A program made the position numbers and the translations under genes. This document shows positions 6,256 to 44,955 of a stretch of 64,000 nucleotides of DNA, piece after piece; the first letter of the stretch is position 1; every line of letters begins with the position of its first letter. The DNA is from Balneolaceae bacterium. Lineage in GTDB: Bacteria > Bacteroidota > Rhodothermia > Balneolales > Balneolaceae. The notes under the pieces are model-generated. The model saw nothing but the letters and a program-made list of their open reading frames with translations, was not told the origin of the DNA and searched no databases. Location of the stretch: positions 1 through 64,000 of the forward strand of contig JAEPNO010000010.1 of assembly GCA_017643365.1 (NCBI GenBank), given 5' to 3'.

Positions 6256-6283
6256 GTTCAATGTTCAATGTTCAATGTTCAAT
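6256..6283. repeat. GTTCAAT heptamer x4, overlapping the umuC stop
   Basis: Four perfect copies of GTTCAAT run through the 3' end of umuC, whose TGA (minus strand, 6279-6281) lies in the last copy. The array may have formed the present end of the gene. Copy-number change here would alter only non-coding DNA beyond the stop. Confidence 0.8.
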
Positions 6284-7610
6284 CTCCCGCTTTCACCACC
6301 ATCAATTCGTCCCAGCGCGTAGTGTATCGTTTACTCAAGTAGTTCTGGTTCATCAACCACTTATTTCTGTGATCGATTTCTTTGTGGAGACCTGTTGCTG
6401 CAAAAGCCGCGTGATTCCGTCCGAATTTGGCATTAATCTGATCCAAACATTCCATGAGTCGATGCTGTTTTTGGGTGTACATCTCAGGATCGAACAAATC
6501 CATCTGTACCTCGGTTTGTGGGATGATTCCGGTTAACATTACCGATGCCTTTTTGTATTTGCGTCCGGGTTCGTACACTTTCTCGGCAAGTTTTTTAGCA
6601 ACTTGAATCATCGTGGGCGTATGCGCTGTGGGGACTTGCAACGGGCAATAAGCACTGAATTTATACTTTCCGCGAATGTTATCGTATTTATCACCTATCA
6701 GTTGAATTTGTATACAGGACGCCACCGAATCCTGAGCTCTCAGCTTCTCGGTAGCTCGGGTTGTAAAAGTGGCCAACGCTTCCTGAATGCTTTCCAAATC
6801 GTACAGCGGCTTACCAAACATCCGCGACGATAAAATTCCTTTCCTTGAATCCCGACCGACACTCAATCCCGAACAGGATTTCCCGTTCAATTCCAACACG
6901 GTACGTAAGCCGGTAACTGCCATTTGTTTGCGCACCCACTTTTTATTTCCGATGGATCGCTTGAGCTCCAACGCATTGGTGATACCAAACCGATTTAAAC
7001 GAATGGTTAAGCCCTGACCGATTCCCCAGATTTTATTTACGGGAAAGTCTGCGAGGAGTGCATCTTGATTCTTGGCCGAAGTGAAATCAAAAACACCATT
7101 GTATTCGGGATTCTTCTTTGCGATGTGATTCGCCACTTTTGCCAACGTTTTTGTGGATGCAATCCCCACCGAAACCGGCAATCCCGTCCATTTCAAAATA
7201 GTCTCTCGAATCATTTTTCCATATTCCACCAAATCCGGAAATACATTGGTGGATAATTCCGCAAAGGCTTCATCAATGCTGTACACTTCGATGTCGTGGG
7301 TTAAATAGCGCAGGGTTTCCATCACTCGGTGACTCATATCCCCATACAGCGCATAATTGGAAGACCGAACCACCATTCCATTTTCTCTAAAATGATTTCG
7401 GTACTTAAACTCGGGCGCTCCCATCTCAACACCAACGTCTTTCGCTTCTTCCGACCGAGCAATTACGCATCCATCATTATTCGACAATATCGCAATCGGT
7501 TTACCGATTAACCGTGGATCAAACACCCGCTCGCACGACGCATAGAAATTATTGCAATCGATCATGGCGTAGGCGGTTGTGGGCTTTGTATGCGGTTCTG
7601 GGTTATTCAC
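6279..7610 (-). CDS. umuC: Y-family translesion DNA polymerase, UmuC subunit
   Basis: Polymerase of the UmuD'2C (Pol V) type that copies past DNA lesions. The 443-residue protein has the Y-family motifs: AMIDCNNFYASCERVFDP (catalytic Asp, residues about 15-32), VLSNNDGCVIARSEEAK and YSIDEAFAEL (second Asp and Glu). A little-finger domain and UmuC-type C-terminus follow. All catalytic acids seen are intact. The start is a GTG at 7610; an ATG lies 15 codons in. umuD is upstream on the same strand, but an inserted four-helix-bundle gene and octamer repeats separate the two. Its stop lies inside a GTTCAAT repeat. Confidence 0.93.
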   Translation of the reverse strand: MNNPEPHTKPTTAYAMIDCNNFYASCERVFDPRLIGKPIAILSNNDGCVIARSEEAKDVGVEMGAPEFKYRNHFRENGMVVRSSNYALYGDMSHRVMETLRYLTHDIEVYSIDEAFAELSTNVFPDLVEYGKMIRETILKWTGLPVSVGIASTKTLAKVANHIAKKNPEYNGVFDFTSAKNQDALLADFPVNKIWGIGQGLTIRLNRFGITNALELKRSIGNKKWVRKQMAVTGLRTVLELNGKSCSGLSVGRDSRKGILSSRMFGKPLYDLESIQEALATFTTRATEKLRAQDSVASCIQIQLIGDKYDNIRGKYKFSAYCPLQVPTAHTPTMIQVAKKLAEKVYEPGRKYKKASVMLTGIIPQTEVQMDLFDPEMYTQKQHRLMECLDQINAKFGRNHAAFAATGLHKEIDHRNKWLMNQNYLSKRYTTRWDELMVVKAGD

Positions 7611-7638
7611 TTTTTCTTGCTATGATTCATTTTGGTAA

Positions 7639-7718
7639 GGGGCAAAGGGGCAGAGGAGCAAAGGGACAAAGTGACGGAGTTACAGAGGGGCAAAGTGACA
7701 AAGGCACATAGGCACAAA
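7639..7718. repeat. 8-bp tandem repeat array (GGNRCAAA-like), 10 units
   Basis: Ten consecutive degenerate octamers (ggggcaaa, ggggcaga, ggagcaaa, gggacaaa, gtgacgga, gttacaga, ggggcaaa, gtgacaaa, ggcacata, ggcacaaa) lie between umuC and the four-helix-bundle gene. A shorter array of the same octamer lies on the other side of that gene in inverted orientation, so the two arms could pair in DNA or RNA. Confidence 0.85.
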
Positions 7719-7723
7719 GATTT

Positions 7724-8131
7724 TTATGGATCAAGTTTTCGGATTAGTGAGCTTAACATTCGTTCTATTTCTCTGGAGTCTTCGTAAAGAATATCGAACC
7801 ATTCTTTCTTCATGTATTCGAGATTTAGTGCGATCTCAACCTGGGTTTGAACTTCATACAACGAGCCAAGTGCAATATTCAAGAATCGAATGTAGTCACC
7901 TGTCGATCGTCTTCCATAGCCTTCAGCAATGTTTGAGGGAATCGAAATGCATGCTCTGCGAAGTTGACTCGTTAGCGAAAACTTTTCGCTGTCAGGGAAA
8001 TAGTTTGTAGCGGTATATACGCGATTAACAAAAGACATCCCTTTTTGCCACACCTTTAAATCCCGGAATGTCTTAATCCCATAGTCAGAAAAATTTTGTG
8101 CTTTTTTAGATTGAGTTATTGGTGTTTCCAT
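7724..8131 (-). CDS. Four-helix-bundle protein (23S rRNA intervening-sequence family)
   Basis: A 135-residue protein of the S23/IVP family, named after ORFs inside 23S rRNA intervening sequences; its biochemical role is unknown. Family features are visible: FRDLKVWQKGMSFVNRVYTAT near the start, then FSLTSQLRRACISIPSNIAEGYGR, and a FLNIALGSLYEVQTQVEIA segment, each within a predicted long helix. It sits between umuD and umuC on the same strand, but nothing ties it to mutagenesis. The inverted octamer repeats around it suggest it arrived as a cassette. Confidence 0.88.
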   Translation of the reverse strand: METPITQSKKAQNFSDYGIKTFRDLKVWQKGMSFVNRVYTATNYFPDSEKFSLTSQLRRACISIPSNIAEGYGRRSTGDYIRFLNIALGSLYEVQTQVEIALNLEYMKKEWFDILYEDSREIERMLSSLIRKLDP

Positions 8132-8158: not shown

Positions 8159-8198
8159 AAAAGTACTAAGTGCCTTTGTGCCTTTGATCCTCTGCTCC
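8159..8198. repeat. Inverted octamer array, 4-5 units
   Basis: Read on the minus strand the units are ggagcaga, ggatcaaa, ggcacaaa, ggcactta and a weak gtactttt. They match the 7639-7718 array in inverse orientation; for instance aaaggcaca is present in both arms. The array starts just downstream of the umuD stop (8200-8202). Confidence 0.8.
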
Positions 8199-8199
8199 T

Positions 8200-8631
8200 T
8201 TAAGTAAACCGATGAATCAAATGCGTAACCACTCCCCAAATCATCCATTGGGTGTTATGCTCAACGGGGATGGGCGGTTGTGAAGCATCATCCGTAACCA
8301 GAAACCTGCGATTTCCTTGTTTAATGAGTCGTCGGATCAACACCTCATCGTCGATGGTGACAACCAAGATGGATCCGTTTGTTGCGTTCAGCGATCGGTC
8401 CACCACTAGAATGTCTTTGTCGTGGATGCCCGAAGCCTTCATCGCATCGCCTTCAACTCTCACATAAAATGTGGAAGTGGGTCGGCGAACAATCAGCTCT
8501 TCCAAATTCAGTGAGCGTTCGAGATGATCACCCGCCGGAGATGGAAACCCCGTCTCAATCCGCCTCGAAAGCTGTAATAAATCGTTGTCCTCGCGTTCTT
8601 TTTGAACCTGATAAGATGTCCAGTTGCTCAT
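8200..8631 (-). CDS. umuD: UmuD homologue lacking both catalytic residues
   Basis: Aligns with Pol V subunit UmuD (S24/LexA-like peptidase) over almost its full length of 143 residues. The cleavage region reads ETGFPSPAGDHLER (27-28 is Thr-Gly; Cys-Gly in E. coli). The active-site block reads VRVEGDAMKASGI where active homologues have GDSM, so the nucleophilic serine is Ala63 (codon 8443-8445, GCG). The general-base lysine of the VKKL block is Arg100 in DEVLIRRL (codon 8332-8334). By family knowledge this protein should not self-cleave. The fold residues are otherwise well kept and the frame is intact, so it may act as a permanently full-length partner of UmuC. Confidence 0.88.
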   Translation of the reverse strand: MSNWTSYQVQKEREDNDLLQLSRRIETGFPSPAGDHLERSLNLEELIVRRPTSTFYVRVEGDAMKASGIHDKDILVVDRSLNATNGSILVVTIDDEVLIRRLIKQGNRRFLVTDDASQPPIPVEHNTQWMIWGVVTHLIHRFT

Positions 8632-8649: not shown

Positions 8650-8680
8650 AATATATGTAAATTATATGTGCAAGCAATAG
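8650..8680 (-). promoter_or_regulatory. ACATATA direct repeat upstream of umuD
   Basis: On the minus strand ACATATA-attt-ACATATA lies about 25 bp before the umuD start, with an 11-bp repeat period, close to one helical turn. An AT-rich promoter of the TATAAT type overlaps it. It could be an activator or repressor site; no classical LexA box was recognised. A similar pair of ACATATA words lies upstream of the radical SAM gene at 44956. Confidence 0.3.
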
Positions 8681-8915: not shown

Positions 8916-11900
8916 ATGTACCTGATTTTTGATACCGAAACCACCGGTTTACCACGAGATTATTCCGCACCCATCACCGATTTAGACAATTGGCCGCGAT
9001 TGGTGCAACTTGCGTGGCAGATGCACGATCACACCGGAAAGCTGGTAAGTCACGGCAATTACATCATCAAGCCGGAAGGCTTTACCATTCCGTTCAACTC
9101 CGAGAAAATTCACGGAATTTCGACGGAACGAGCCAACAAAGAAGGACACGATCTGGCGGAAGTACTCCAAATCTTCCGAAAAGACATCGACAAATCGTAC
9201 TTCCTGGTGGGGCATAACGTAAGCTTTGATGAGTCGGTAATGGGCGCCGAGTTCCTGAGAAAGCGAATTCCATCGGCTATCATGGATAAGCCGAAAATCG
9301 ACACGAAGGATGAATCAACTCAATTCGTAGGCATTCCAAACGGACGAGGTGGATTCAAATGGCCAACTTTGGGTGAGCTTCATCACAAGATATTTAACAA
9401 AGGCTTTGAAGATGCCCACGATGCCGCCGCCGATGTAGAAGCAACTACTCGTGCTTTCCTCGAACTCGTTCGGATGGGAGTGATTCAGGTTAACTTTCCT
9501 CTGGATGCTCGCTTGTACGAACCGGCACAAAGCTATATCGTTCGGGATCATTACATCGATTTGGTTTCTCCATCACGGCTGAAAAAAAAAGAGAACGAAA
9601 TTACGGAGGCCGATTCCGATAGCGAATTAACGGCGGAACCGGCTGTTGAGCTCTCCGAAGATGTGGTGTTCACCCATCTTCACAATCACTCGAAATTCTC
9701 GGTGCTGCAATCCACCGCCGGGGTAAAAGAATTGGTTTCCCGCGCCAAAGAAATGGGCATGCCCGCCGTGGCCCTTACCGATTTGGGGAATATGTACGGC
9801 GCGTTTTCCTTCACATCCGCTGCTTATGCGGCAGGAATTAAGCCCATTATCGGATGTGAACTGTATCTGGTTGAAGATCGCCACAAAAAGAAATTTACGC
9901 GGGAACATCGGGATCACCGCTCGCAGATTGTCATGCTGGCAAAAAATCAGAATGGATATAAAAATCTGGCAAAAATCTGTTCTACGGGATTCACCGAGGG
10001 CTATTATTACAAATTTCCTCGGATTGATAAAGAGGTAATCGAAGCTCACAAAGACGACATTATTTGTTTGAGTGGAAATACGCGCGGGGTGCTAGGTGAT
10101 TTGATTCTGAATAAAGGCGAAGAGTATGCCGAAGAAGAGTTAAAATGGTGGATGGAGATGTTTGGTGATGATTTTTACTTGGAAGTCATCAACCATGGAC
10201 TGGATGAAGAGCAGCGGGTGAATCAGGTTTTTAAGCAGTTTTCGCAGAAATATGGCGTAAAACTGGTTGCCACCAACAACACGTTTTACATCGATCAGAA
10301 AGATGCGGACGCCCACGATGCGTTGATTTGTATCGACGATGGAACGCTCAAAAGCACGCCAATTGGTCGCGGACGTGAATACCGCTATGGTTTCCCGAAT
10401 CAGGAATTCTGGTTTAAAGATACCGAAGCGATGATCGAGTTGTTCCCGGAAATGCCGGAAGCCATCGTAAATGTGCAGGAGATTGTCGACAAGATTGAAG
10501 AAGTGAAGCTCGCACGGGATGTGATTCTTCCCAAGTTCGAAATTCCCGAGCAGTTTGAGACCGAGGATGATTTTTTGCGTCATCTCACCTTTGAAGGAGC
10601 CAAACCTCGTTATCCGGAAATGTCGCAGGAAGTGAGGGATCGGATTGAGTTGGAGCTGGGCATCATCAAAGACATGGGTTTTCCAGGATACTTTTTGATT
10701 GTACAGGATTTTATTGCCGCTGCGCGTGATATGGGTGTTTATGTGGGACCGGGACGTGGATCGGCGGCCGGTTCGGTGGTGGCTTATTGCACGGGAATCA
10801 CCAACATCGATCCGCTGAAATACGATCTGCTTTTTGAGCGCTTTTTGAATCCGGAGCGGGTTTCGATGCCGGATATAGATATCGATTTTGATGATGACGG
10901 TCGCGCCCGGGTTATCGATTATGTGGTGGAGAAATACGGGAAAGATCAGGTGGCGCACATTATCACTTTTGGTTCGATGGCGGCTCGATCTTCGGTTCGC
11001 GATGTTGCCCGTGTGCTCGATCTTCCGTTATCGGATGCCGATCGCTTAGCGAAATTGGTACCTGAACGTCCGGGCACTTCGCTGGATGACGCTTTCTCGG
11101 AAGTGAAAGAATTACGCGACATCAAAGCCGGGGAAGGGCTCGAAGCCGAGACAATGAAAATGGCGCATGTGCTGGAAGGTTCGGTTCGAAATACCGGAAT
11201 TCATGCTGCGGGTGTGATTATTGCCCCTGATAATCTGACCGAATACATCCCCGTAACCACCGCAAAAGACGCCGATCTTACGGTTACTCAGTTTGATGGA
11301 AGTGTAATCGAAAGTGCCGGAATGCTGAAGATGGATTTCCTGGGATTGAAGACCCTTTCGATCCTGAAAACAGCCATCGGATACGTGAAAGAAAATCACG
11401 GCAAAGAATATGATCTTGATGACATTCCGCTGGATGACGAGACTACTTATAAGTTGTATCAAAAAGGCGGGACGCTAGGTACATTCCAGTTTGAGAGTGA
11501 AGGGATGCGGAAGTATCTGAAAGAACTCAAGCCTACCGATATCAACGATTTGATTGCGATGAACGCATTGTATCGTCCGGGACCGATGCAGTTTATCCCC
11601 GATTATATCCGCAGAAAACACGGGGAAGAAGAAGCCGAATACGATCACGAGTTGATTCGGGATATCCTGGAGCCGACGTACGGAATTATGATCTATCAGG
11701 AGCAGATCATGAACGTGGCGCAGAAACTTGCCGGTTACAGCTTGGGACAAGCGGATTTATTACGACGTGCGATGGGTAAGAAGAAGCGCGAGGTGATGGA
11801 GAAAGAGAAGCCGAAGTTTGTGGAAGGCGCCAAAGAAAACGGTGTAGATGAAGCCACGGCAAAGGCGATTTTCGAGAAAATGGAGATGTTTGCGAGTTAC

Positions 11901-13124
11901 GGTTTCAACAAATCTCACTCGGCGGCATACTCGGTGGTTGCTTATCACACCATGTATTTCAAAGCGAATTATCCTGCCGAATATATGGCTGCGGTGATGA
12001 GCCACAACATGAACGACATCAAAAAAGTGGCGTCGTTTATTGAAGAGTGCCAGAAAATGGGCATCCCGGTTGATCCGCCGAACATCAACACTGCTCGCGG
12101 AAAGTTTGTGGCGAAAGATGGTCGCGTGCAATATGGGATGAGTGCAATTAAAGGTGTGGGTTCAAGTGCCATTGCGCATATTGTTGAAGAACGCGAAGAG
12201 AATGGATTGTTCATGAGCGTGTTCGATTTTGCATCGCGGGTGGATTTACGAACCTGCAACAAAAAAACGCTGGAGAGTTTAATCCAGGCCGGTGCTTTTG
12301 ATGATTTGAATGACAACCGCGCTGAGTTGTTGATTGGGCTCGAAGACATTGTGGCGTATGCTCAGCGTAAGCAGGAAGAAGCTCGCTTAAACCAAGGGAA
12401 TTTGTTTGGTGGAGGCAGTGGAGGAGGAGTGCTTCAAGAACCGAAACTAAAGCCTGTGCCGAAATGGAGCAGTATTGAGCGATTGAATAAAGAGCGCGAA
12501 CTCATCGGGTTTTATTTGAGTGGACATCCGCTAAACAAATACAAAGAAGACATCCGGTTATTTGGAAAGCAGAATCTCAGTGATGAATTCATCAACCAGC
12601 TGCAGCATGAGTCGGAACTTCGGTTTATTGCCATCATCACCTCAAAGCGTCAGGCGGTGGATCGTAAAGGGCGTCCGATTGCCTTTTTAATGGTGGAAGA
12701 TCTGCATTCGTCGATGGAAGTGGCTGTATTCAGCAAAGAGTTTGATAAATTCGCTCCGCTTATCGAGGTGGATAATGTGGTGTATATCACCGGGAAATAT
12801 TCGAAACGCGAACGCGGAAATAGCTTGATTGTGAATAATATGGAGCGAATCGAGAATCTGCGTGAGAAGTTCCAGGATAAGCTACGATTGAAGTTGAACA
12901 TCCAAACCGAGCACATTACCTCGAACGATCTCACCCAAATGGAAACCTTGTTCGAATTGAACAAAGGAAATACCATGGTGAAGCTGAATGTGATGAGTAA
13001 AGTAGCGAATGGTCCGATAAAGATGAACTTGCGAAATTTTGTGGTTGAACCAACGGATGAGTTACTTTCAGGGCTTCGAGAAGTGCTTGGGGAAGAATCG
13101 GTTGAGCTTTTTCTTACCGGTTGA
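8916..13124 (+). CDS. dnaE: DNA polymerase III alpha subunit with fused N-terminal 3'-5' exonuclease
   Basis: Replicative polymerase of 1402 residues, larger than the usual 1160-residue DnaE because a DnaQ-like DEDDh exonuclease precedes it. The exonuclease spans about 1-180 (FDTETTG at 6-12, HNVSFDE, HDAAADVEAT). The PHP domain starts near 250 (HLHNHSKFS). The polymerase palm has GPGRGSAAGSVVAY and PDIDIDFDDDGR around 652-663. The helix-hairpin-helix and OB-fold regions follow to the end (about 1230-1310). Proofreading and synthesis thus lie on one chain, as in some other FCB-group bacteria. It is divergent from umuD, which places replicative and translesion polymerase genes back to back. 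Confidence 0.96.
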   Translation: MYLIFDTETTGLPRDYSAPITDLDNWPRLVQLAWQMHDHTGKLVSHGNYIIKPEGFTIPFNSEKIHGISTERANKEGHDLAEVLQIFRKDIDKSYFLVGHNVSFDESVMGAEFLRKRIPSAIMDKPKIDTKDESTQFVGIPNGRGGFKWPTLGELHHKIFNKGFEDAHDAAADVEATTRAFLELVRMGVIQVNFPLDARLYEPAQSYIVRDHYIDLVSPSRLKKKENEITEADSDSELTAEPAVELSEDVVFTHLHNHSKFSVLQSTAGVKELVSRAKEMGMPAVALTDLGNMYGAFSFTSAAYAAGIKPIIGCELYLVEDRHKKKFTREHRDHRSQIVMLAKNQNGYKNLAKICSTGFTEGYYYKFPRIDKEVIEAHKDDIICLSGNTRGVLGDLILNKGEEYAEEELKWWMEMFGDDFYLEVINHGLDEEQRVNQVFKQFSQKYGVKLVATNNTFYIDQKDADAHDALICIDDGTLKSTPIGRGREYRYGFPNQEFWFKDTEAMIELFPEMPEAIVNVQEIVDKIEEVKLARDVILPKFEIPEQFETEDDFLRHLTFEGAKPRYPEMSQEVRDRIELELGIIKDMGFPGYFLIVQDFIAAARDMGVYVGPGRGSAAGSVVAYCTGITNIDPLKYDLLFERFLNPERVSMPDIDIDFDDDGRARVIDYVVEKYGKDQVAHIITFGSMAARSSVRDVARVLDLPLSDADRLAKLVPERPGTSLDDAFSEVKELRDIKAGEGLEAETMKMAHVLEGSVRNTGIHAAGVIIAPDNLTEYIPVTTAKDADLTVTQFDGSVIESAGMLKMDFLGLKTLSILKTAIGYVKENHGKEYDLDDIPLDDETTYKLYQKGGTLGTFQFESEGMRKYLKELKPTDINDLIAMNALYRPGPMQFIPDYIRRKHGEEEAEYDHELIRDILEPTYGIMIYQEQIMNVAQKLAGYSLGQADLLRRAMGKKKREVMEKEKPKFVEGAKENGVDEATAKAIFEKMEMFASYGFNKSHSAAYSVVAYHTMYFKANYPAEYMAAVMSHNMNDIKKVASFIEECQKMGIPVDPPNINTARGKFVAKDGRVQYGMSAIKGVGSSAIAHIVEEREENGLFMSVFDFASRVDLRTCNKKTLESLIQAGAFDDLNDNRAELLIGLEDIVAYAQRKQEEARLNQGNLFGGGSGGGVLQEPKLKPVPKWSSIERLNKERELIGFYLSGHPLNKYKEDIRLFGKQNLSDEFINQLQHESELRFIAIITSKRQAVDRKGRPIAFLMVEDLHSSMEVAVFSKEFDKFAPLIEVDNVVYITGKYSKRERGNSLIVNNMERIENLREKFQDKLRLKLNIQTEHITSNDLTQMETLFELNKGNTMVKLNVMSKVANGPIKMNLRNFVVEPTDELLSGLREVLGEESVELFLTG

Positions 13125-44914: not shown

Positions 44915-44943
44915 AATTCAATTGATATATGTGTAATATATAT
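44915..44943. promoter_or_regulatory. TATATGT direct repeat in the divergent promoter region
   Basis: Two TATATGT words lie about 13 bp apart between the YbjN-like and radical SAM genes, in wording similar to the pair before umuD. A common regulator for the two DNA-repair-related loci is possible but unproven, since spacings differ. Confidence 0.2.
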
Positions 44944-44955
44944 GTATCATTTTAA

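Follow-up and report, generated by a model that had tools for sequence, protein, structure and literature searches.

A family of UmuD homologues in Balneolaceae without the sequence determinants of self-cleavage

In E. coli, the self-cleavage of UmuD is the textbook switch that converts Pol V from a non-mutagenic to a mutagenic state. A umuDC locus of a Balneolaceae bacterium, analysed here within a stretch of 64,000 nucleotides (the window), raises the question of what becomes of such a system when the residues needed for cleavage have been replaced. The features of the locus are as follows.

6279..7610, minus strand: umuC (IMS, IMS_C and DUF4113 domains), with the catalytic D/D/E and the clamp motif QMDLF intact
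7724..8131, minus strand: four-helix-bundle gene of the 23S rRNA IVP family, between umuD and umuC, from domain matches
8200..8631, minus strand: umuD, coding for a UmuD homologue of 143 aa predicted to be catalytically dead, from profile and structure-sequence matches and 40 family members
8332..8334, minus strand: codon CGA of Arg100, aligned with the E. coli general base Lys97 (phmmer alignments)
8443..8445, minus strand: codon GCG of Ala63, aligned with the E. coli nucleophile Ser60 (phmmer alignments, 8gmt/1umu)
8524..8556, minus strand: segment E-T-G-F-P-S-P-A-G-D-H, near-invariant in the family alignment; proposed UmuC-docking motif, a role taken from a Pol V model (PMC11791011)
8548..8553, minus strand: Thr27-Gly28, in place of the scissile Cys24/Ala-Gly25 bond (alignment to E. 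coli UmuD)
8652..8671, minus strand: predicted LexA box GCACATATAATTTACATATA upstream of umuD, a direct repeat matching the published Balneolaeota consensus

The UmuD of the window and its gene context

The umuD product scores 128.4 bits against NF007621 (UmuD 'autoproteolytic subunit', cut-off 110) and 93 bits against Peptidase_S24, and it matches the E. coli UmuD of 8gmt with an E of 7e-21 (phmmer); a weak match to NF051876 (75 bits) lies below that profile's cut-off of 120. The best Foldseek matches of its structural model are 8gmt, 1ay9 and 1umu, with a TMt of about 0.9 for 8gmt and 1ay9. By fold, sequence and gene context the protein is a UmuD; judged by its residues, it is not a self-cleaving S24 peptidase, since none of the three sequence determinants of autoproteolysis (Ser, Lys and Ala/Cys-Gly) is present. 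A preliminary description of this DNA had placed Ala63 at the site of the serine nucleophile and Arg100 at that of the paired lysine, and alignment leads to the same codons and the same residues. A third change, the Thr27-Gly28 that stands in for the scissile bond, was absent from that description. All three changes recur in the UmuD of a separate genome of the same genus (G002), which is 95% identical to that of the window. Sequencing error or chance is ruled out, because G002 has the same three changes and because neither the Lys nor the Ala/Cys-Gly site is present in any of 38 further family genomes.

Several ways in which cleavage, or its product, might be supplied from elsewhere were considered and rejected. 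The preliminary description had suggested looking for a second, active umuD, and the search turned up only LexA: there is no second UmuD in the window's genome, and the sole other S24 protein above the Pfam cut-off is LexA, which keeps its Ser, Lys and Ala-Gly. A relocated Ser/Lys pair shared by the family cannot be proposed, because no position of the family alignment has an invariant Lys. An internal start that would make a UmuD' form directly was rejected on inspection of the window gene, which has no ATG, GTG or TTG at the GFPSP junction. In plasmid and phage collections there was no close relative of this UmuD, every match being below 60% identity.

The genetic setting suggests an SOS-controlled Pol V. 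The box upstream of umuD matches the Balneolaeota LexA consensus TTACACATATTTTWTACATA, an EMSA-tested motif; the SOS analysis that reported it places Pol V in the regulon, and the word UmuD is absent from its text (PMC7739468). Across the window, 2 matches to the LexA core pattern with at most one mismatch were observed, compared with 0.08 expected by chance; the second LexA-box-like site, at 44929-44945 on the minus strand, has one mismatch to the core pattern. The umuC gene lies downstream of umuD on the same strand, with 580 bp between the two ORFs; in most relatives within the family it follows umuD immediately, and at the family's loci with this order a LexA box lies upstream of umuD. UmuC residues D6, D101 and E102 are present, as the preliminary description had said of the active-site acids, and a clamp motif of the QxxLF type is kept as well. 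Two other Y-family proteins are encoded in the window's genome.

Distribution of the loss and the constraint on umuD

Profile searches for UmuD covered 92 genomes of Balneolaceae (family f1), together with the class and phylum; loci were fetched and the residues read. Within the family, 40 intact UmuDs were found, a count of distinct genes, one gene having been entered twice in a table of 41 rows. At position 97 (E. coli numbering) these proteins have Arg (27/40) or Cys (13/40) and never Lys; at position 60, Ser has been lost from 37 of the 40 in favour of Ala, Gly, Glu, Asp or Asn, and the three that retain an aligned Ser60 all lack Lys97. The P1 residue is Thr in 38 of the 40, the two deviants reading E-D and K-D, and Ala or Cys in none. 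Thus the alignment of homologues that had been proposed to find out whether the changes are common gives 40/40 without the Lys and 37/40 without the Ser. In the subclade of genera g19 and g20 (L088, L091-L100, L102 and L103), an invariant Cys stands in place of Lys97.

Outside the family, 73 rows, two of them from Proteobacteria, are canonical at all three sites, although these are mostly best-scoring matches rather than a random sample and include one gene twice; in family f4, which belongs to the same order, every row is canonical (6/6). P1 is Ala in 73/73 of the canonical rows and Thr in 38/38 of the Balneolaceae rows with a UmuC in the genome. The exceptions are few. Of the f17 rows, two combine Ala/Arg with the absence of a Gly site, another lacks that site and has Arg for Lys, and a fourth retains both Ser and Lys with no Gly at the site; family f7 has one row with T-G together with Glu and Arg, and in family f15 the only change is from Lys to Arg. 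In two f17 loci (L128 and L129) the dyad is Ala/Arg, the cleavage site is lost, and umuC lies on the opposite strand and not downstream; to go by their sequences, these apparently represent a second, independent loss. Since the Balneolaceae UmuCs form one clade in the UmuC tree (34 rows, support 100/99), with those of f17 and f7 outside it, the loss of the UmuD determinants appears to be ancestral to Balneolaceae and to have occurred again at least in f17.

The gene has remained under constraint. For umuD, comparison of the window with G002 gives a dN of 0.037 and a dS of 1.20 (dN/dS 0.031), and for umuC a dN of 0.07 and a dS of 1.76 (dN/dS 0.04); other Balneolaceae pairs with amino-acid changes give umuD dN/dS values of 0.05-0.11, several of the dS values being close to saturation. 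The constraint is unevenly spread. Among the 38 family rows with a UmuC in the genome, E23 is found in 37, and T24, G25, F26, S28, P29, A30, D32 and H33 in all 38 (E. coli numbering), whereas position 60 varies. Consequently, the old catalytic site has drifted, and the region of the old cleavage site, ETGFxSPAxDH, is under a different and strict constraint. The N-terminal arm is itself under purifying selection in several family pairs. In the canonical rows, arm position 16 is Pro in 69 of 73, and a hydrophobic residue at position 17 is near-universal; in most Balneolaceae rows P16 has become Leu or Val and L17 a polar residue.

The presence of umuD also follows that of umuC. A DUF4113 UmuC is encoded in 38 of the 40 genomes with an intact umuD, and a strong UmuC match without UmuD was seen in one genome only, which is 86% complete. 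In genus g7, umuC is not beside umuD, and no LexA box was seen upstream of the umuDs; the four genomes with an intact umuD have an intact umuC, and three others carry umuD pseudogenes, with umuC fragmented or not detected. In two UmuDs from genomes of genus g19 in which UmuC was not detected (one of them 81% complete), DYPAP replaces GFPSP, and a LexA box still lies upstream of the gene; because the two are close relatives, they count as one event. With GFPSP gone from genomes that have no detected UmuC, nature itself offers a test of the model of Pol V that has this motif docking on UmuC.

Given this pattern, that umuD is a decaying pseudogene or the product of sequencing error can practically be dismissed: two catalytic residues are lost and genus g7 does have three real umuD pseudogenes, but a dN/dS of 0.03, 40 intact frames, near-invariant motifs, a conserved LexA box and linkage to umuC are hard to reconcile with decay. 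The earlier proposal of a constrained, non-cleaving UmuD is thus well supported: the whole family shares the condition, the frames are open, dN/dS is low and the gene is tied to umuC.

A proposed role for uncut UmuD as a partner of UmuC

Because UmuD is kept together with UmuC, decays jointly with it in genus g7 and has lost GFPSP where UmuC was not detected, it is best regarded as a maintained, uncleaved subunit of Pol V. To judge from the sequences, autoproteolysis was probably lost in the ancestor of the family, leaving a full-length UmuD, itself without enzymatic activity, on which UmuC would depend as its obligate partner in a LexA-controlled Pol V. How such a protein might work is suggested by studies of the E. 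coli enzyme, in which, according to a model, the freed and conserved GFPSP N-terminus of one UmuD' is positioned at the palm and little finger of UmuC (PMC11791011). The Balneolaceae UmuD would not be cleaved and would stay full length, with an arm that no longer has its anchor motif; ETGFxSPAxDH, within the uncut chain, would dock on UmuC in the role of the freed UmuD' end. More speculatively, uncut UmuD2C may then perform translesion synthesis, and proteolytic licensing may have been dispensed with, leaving control to LexA-regulated transcription and RecA. A Pol V under LexA and RecA without proteolytic licensing seems the most likely reading of these sequences. The fuller version, in which the internal ETGFxSPAxDH of the uncut dimer activates UmuC and licensing was lost family-wide, probably independently in f17 and possibly in f7, has in our estimate an even chance of being correct.

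The E. coli system also provides evidence against an active, uncut Pol V. No polymerase activity can be detected for uncut E. coli UmuD2C, which functions in a checkpoint (PMC4045847), and the S60A substitution in UmuD strongly lowers UV mutagenesis (PMC3901139); furthermore, the selected arm of the Balneolaceae protein could equally have an inhibitory role. The main rival is a permanent checkpoint, in which a locked UmuD2C, behaving like that of E. coli (PMC4045847), responds to damage by slowing replication or holding back other polymerases and never carries out translesion synthesis, lesions being bypassed by the two other Y-family proteins of the genome. The presence of these proteins, and the retention and selection of the UmuD arm, are in keeping with such a role. 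However, most members of the family have other residues at arm positions 16-18, which anchor the arm in E. coli, and the polymerase acids and clamp motif of UmuC, which a pure checkpoint does not obviously need, are fully kept. For these reasons the checkpoint is not favoured, and we regard it as unlikely, if worth keeping in view; the preliminary description had gone from a full-length state to a checkpoint function, a step left unsupported by the replacement of positions 16 and 17 in most Balneolaceae UmuDs and by the intact UmuC residues. As read from these residues, an uncut yet translesion-competent protein is at least as likely as the checkpoint. AlphaFold2 models of a family protein and a canonical relative give the arm a pLDDT below 50 in both, so that a comparison of arm placement is uninformative.

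It is also conceivable, but quite improbable, that the arm is trimmed in trans, by LexA, Clp, Lon or an unknown protease, to give a UmuD'-like form. The GF junction is conserved, and in E. coli a partner that has an active site can cut the arms of UmuD S60A in trans (PMC5342242). Nevertheless, Thr is the P1 residue of all members whose genome has a UmuC, there is no second active UmuD in the genome, and the other S24 protein is LexA. LexA normally cuts its own chain. Finally, UmuD might be a manager of polymerases whose main target is DnaE, the clamp or DinB and not UmuC. The four g7 genomes whose intact umuD is unlinked from umuC and has no LexA box, and the two g19 genomes in which umuD and its LexA box persist and UmuC was not detected, would fit such a role, but across the family the presence and decay of umuD follow umuC, and we consider this very unlikely.

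The uncleaved Pol V subunit proposed here shares with E. coli UmuD and Pol V (UmuD'2C-RecA) its fold and family, the umuDC pair, the predicted LexA box and GFPSPAxD; unlike E. coli UmuD, the Balneolaceae protein has neither the Ser/Lys dyad nor the Ala/Cys-Gly bond, its arm anchor is replaced, and it would presumably not be licensed by autocleavage. Two laboratory variants of the E. coli protein resemble it in part: S60A has Ala at the same position as the window UmuD, and UmuD 3A (T14A L17A F18A), an uncut mimic of UmuD' in which the arms are freed and loosely bound, is changed near the arm positions altered in Balneolaceae (PMC5342242). Unlike these engineered proteins, the Balneolaceae combination is natural and ancestral to the family, and it includes the changes of Lys to Arg or Cys and of Ala/Cys to Thr. 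Acinetobacter UmuDAb is likewise a UmuD put to another use, but its N-terminal domain binds DNA and it cleaves itself (PMC8565304); the window UmuD has no such domain and is predicted not to self-cleave. A search of the open-access literature turned up no report of a natural non-cleaving UmuD, only of engineered variants, and no experimental study of a Balneolaceae UmuD; with the search confined to such papers, novelty is provisional. Phage P1 HumD, a UmuD'-like protein with no arm, belongs to the family and occurs naturally in a form that does not depend on cleavage, and the weak NF051876 match counts as a further similarity; it is pre-shortened, whereas the window UmuD keeps its arm.

A family in which the gene pair, the SOS box and the UmuC active site are kept and the switch is lost allows a direct test of whether Pol V activity inherently requires cleavage, or whether cleavage is a dispensable layer of regulation. 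In addition, the curated annotation 'autoproteolytic subunit' (NF007621) would be wrong for the Balneolaceae clade.

The gene between umuD and umuC and other observations

The IVP-family gene between umuD and umuC is probably an insertion that takes no part in the UmuD/UmuC mechanism. Low-complexity tracts flank it at about 7636-7725 and 8166-8199. An IVP gene occupies the same spot in G002 (L084, with an array of the octamer 'aactctgt') and in G034 (L065, with 'gcctctgt'), and there is none at that spot in G025 (L066). The gene in the window is closer to that of G034 (74%) than to the copy of its own genus (63%), which suggests separate insertions or replacement. The window's genome has 11 IVP-family genes, and outside the window it contains a tandem octamer array, GGGACAAA, of at least 9 units (G000:C47:227291-227367), similar to the tracts that flank the IVP gene. 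On the other side of umuD, the dnaE ORF (1402 aa; window 8916-13124, plus strand) has, when read by eye, an N-terminal DnaQ-like exonuclease that is apparently fused to Pol III alpha.
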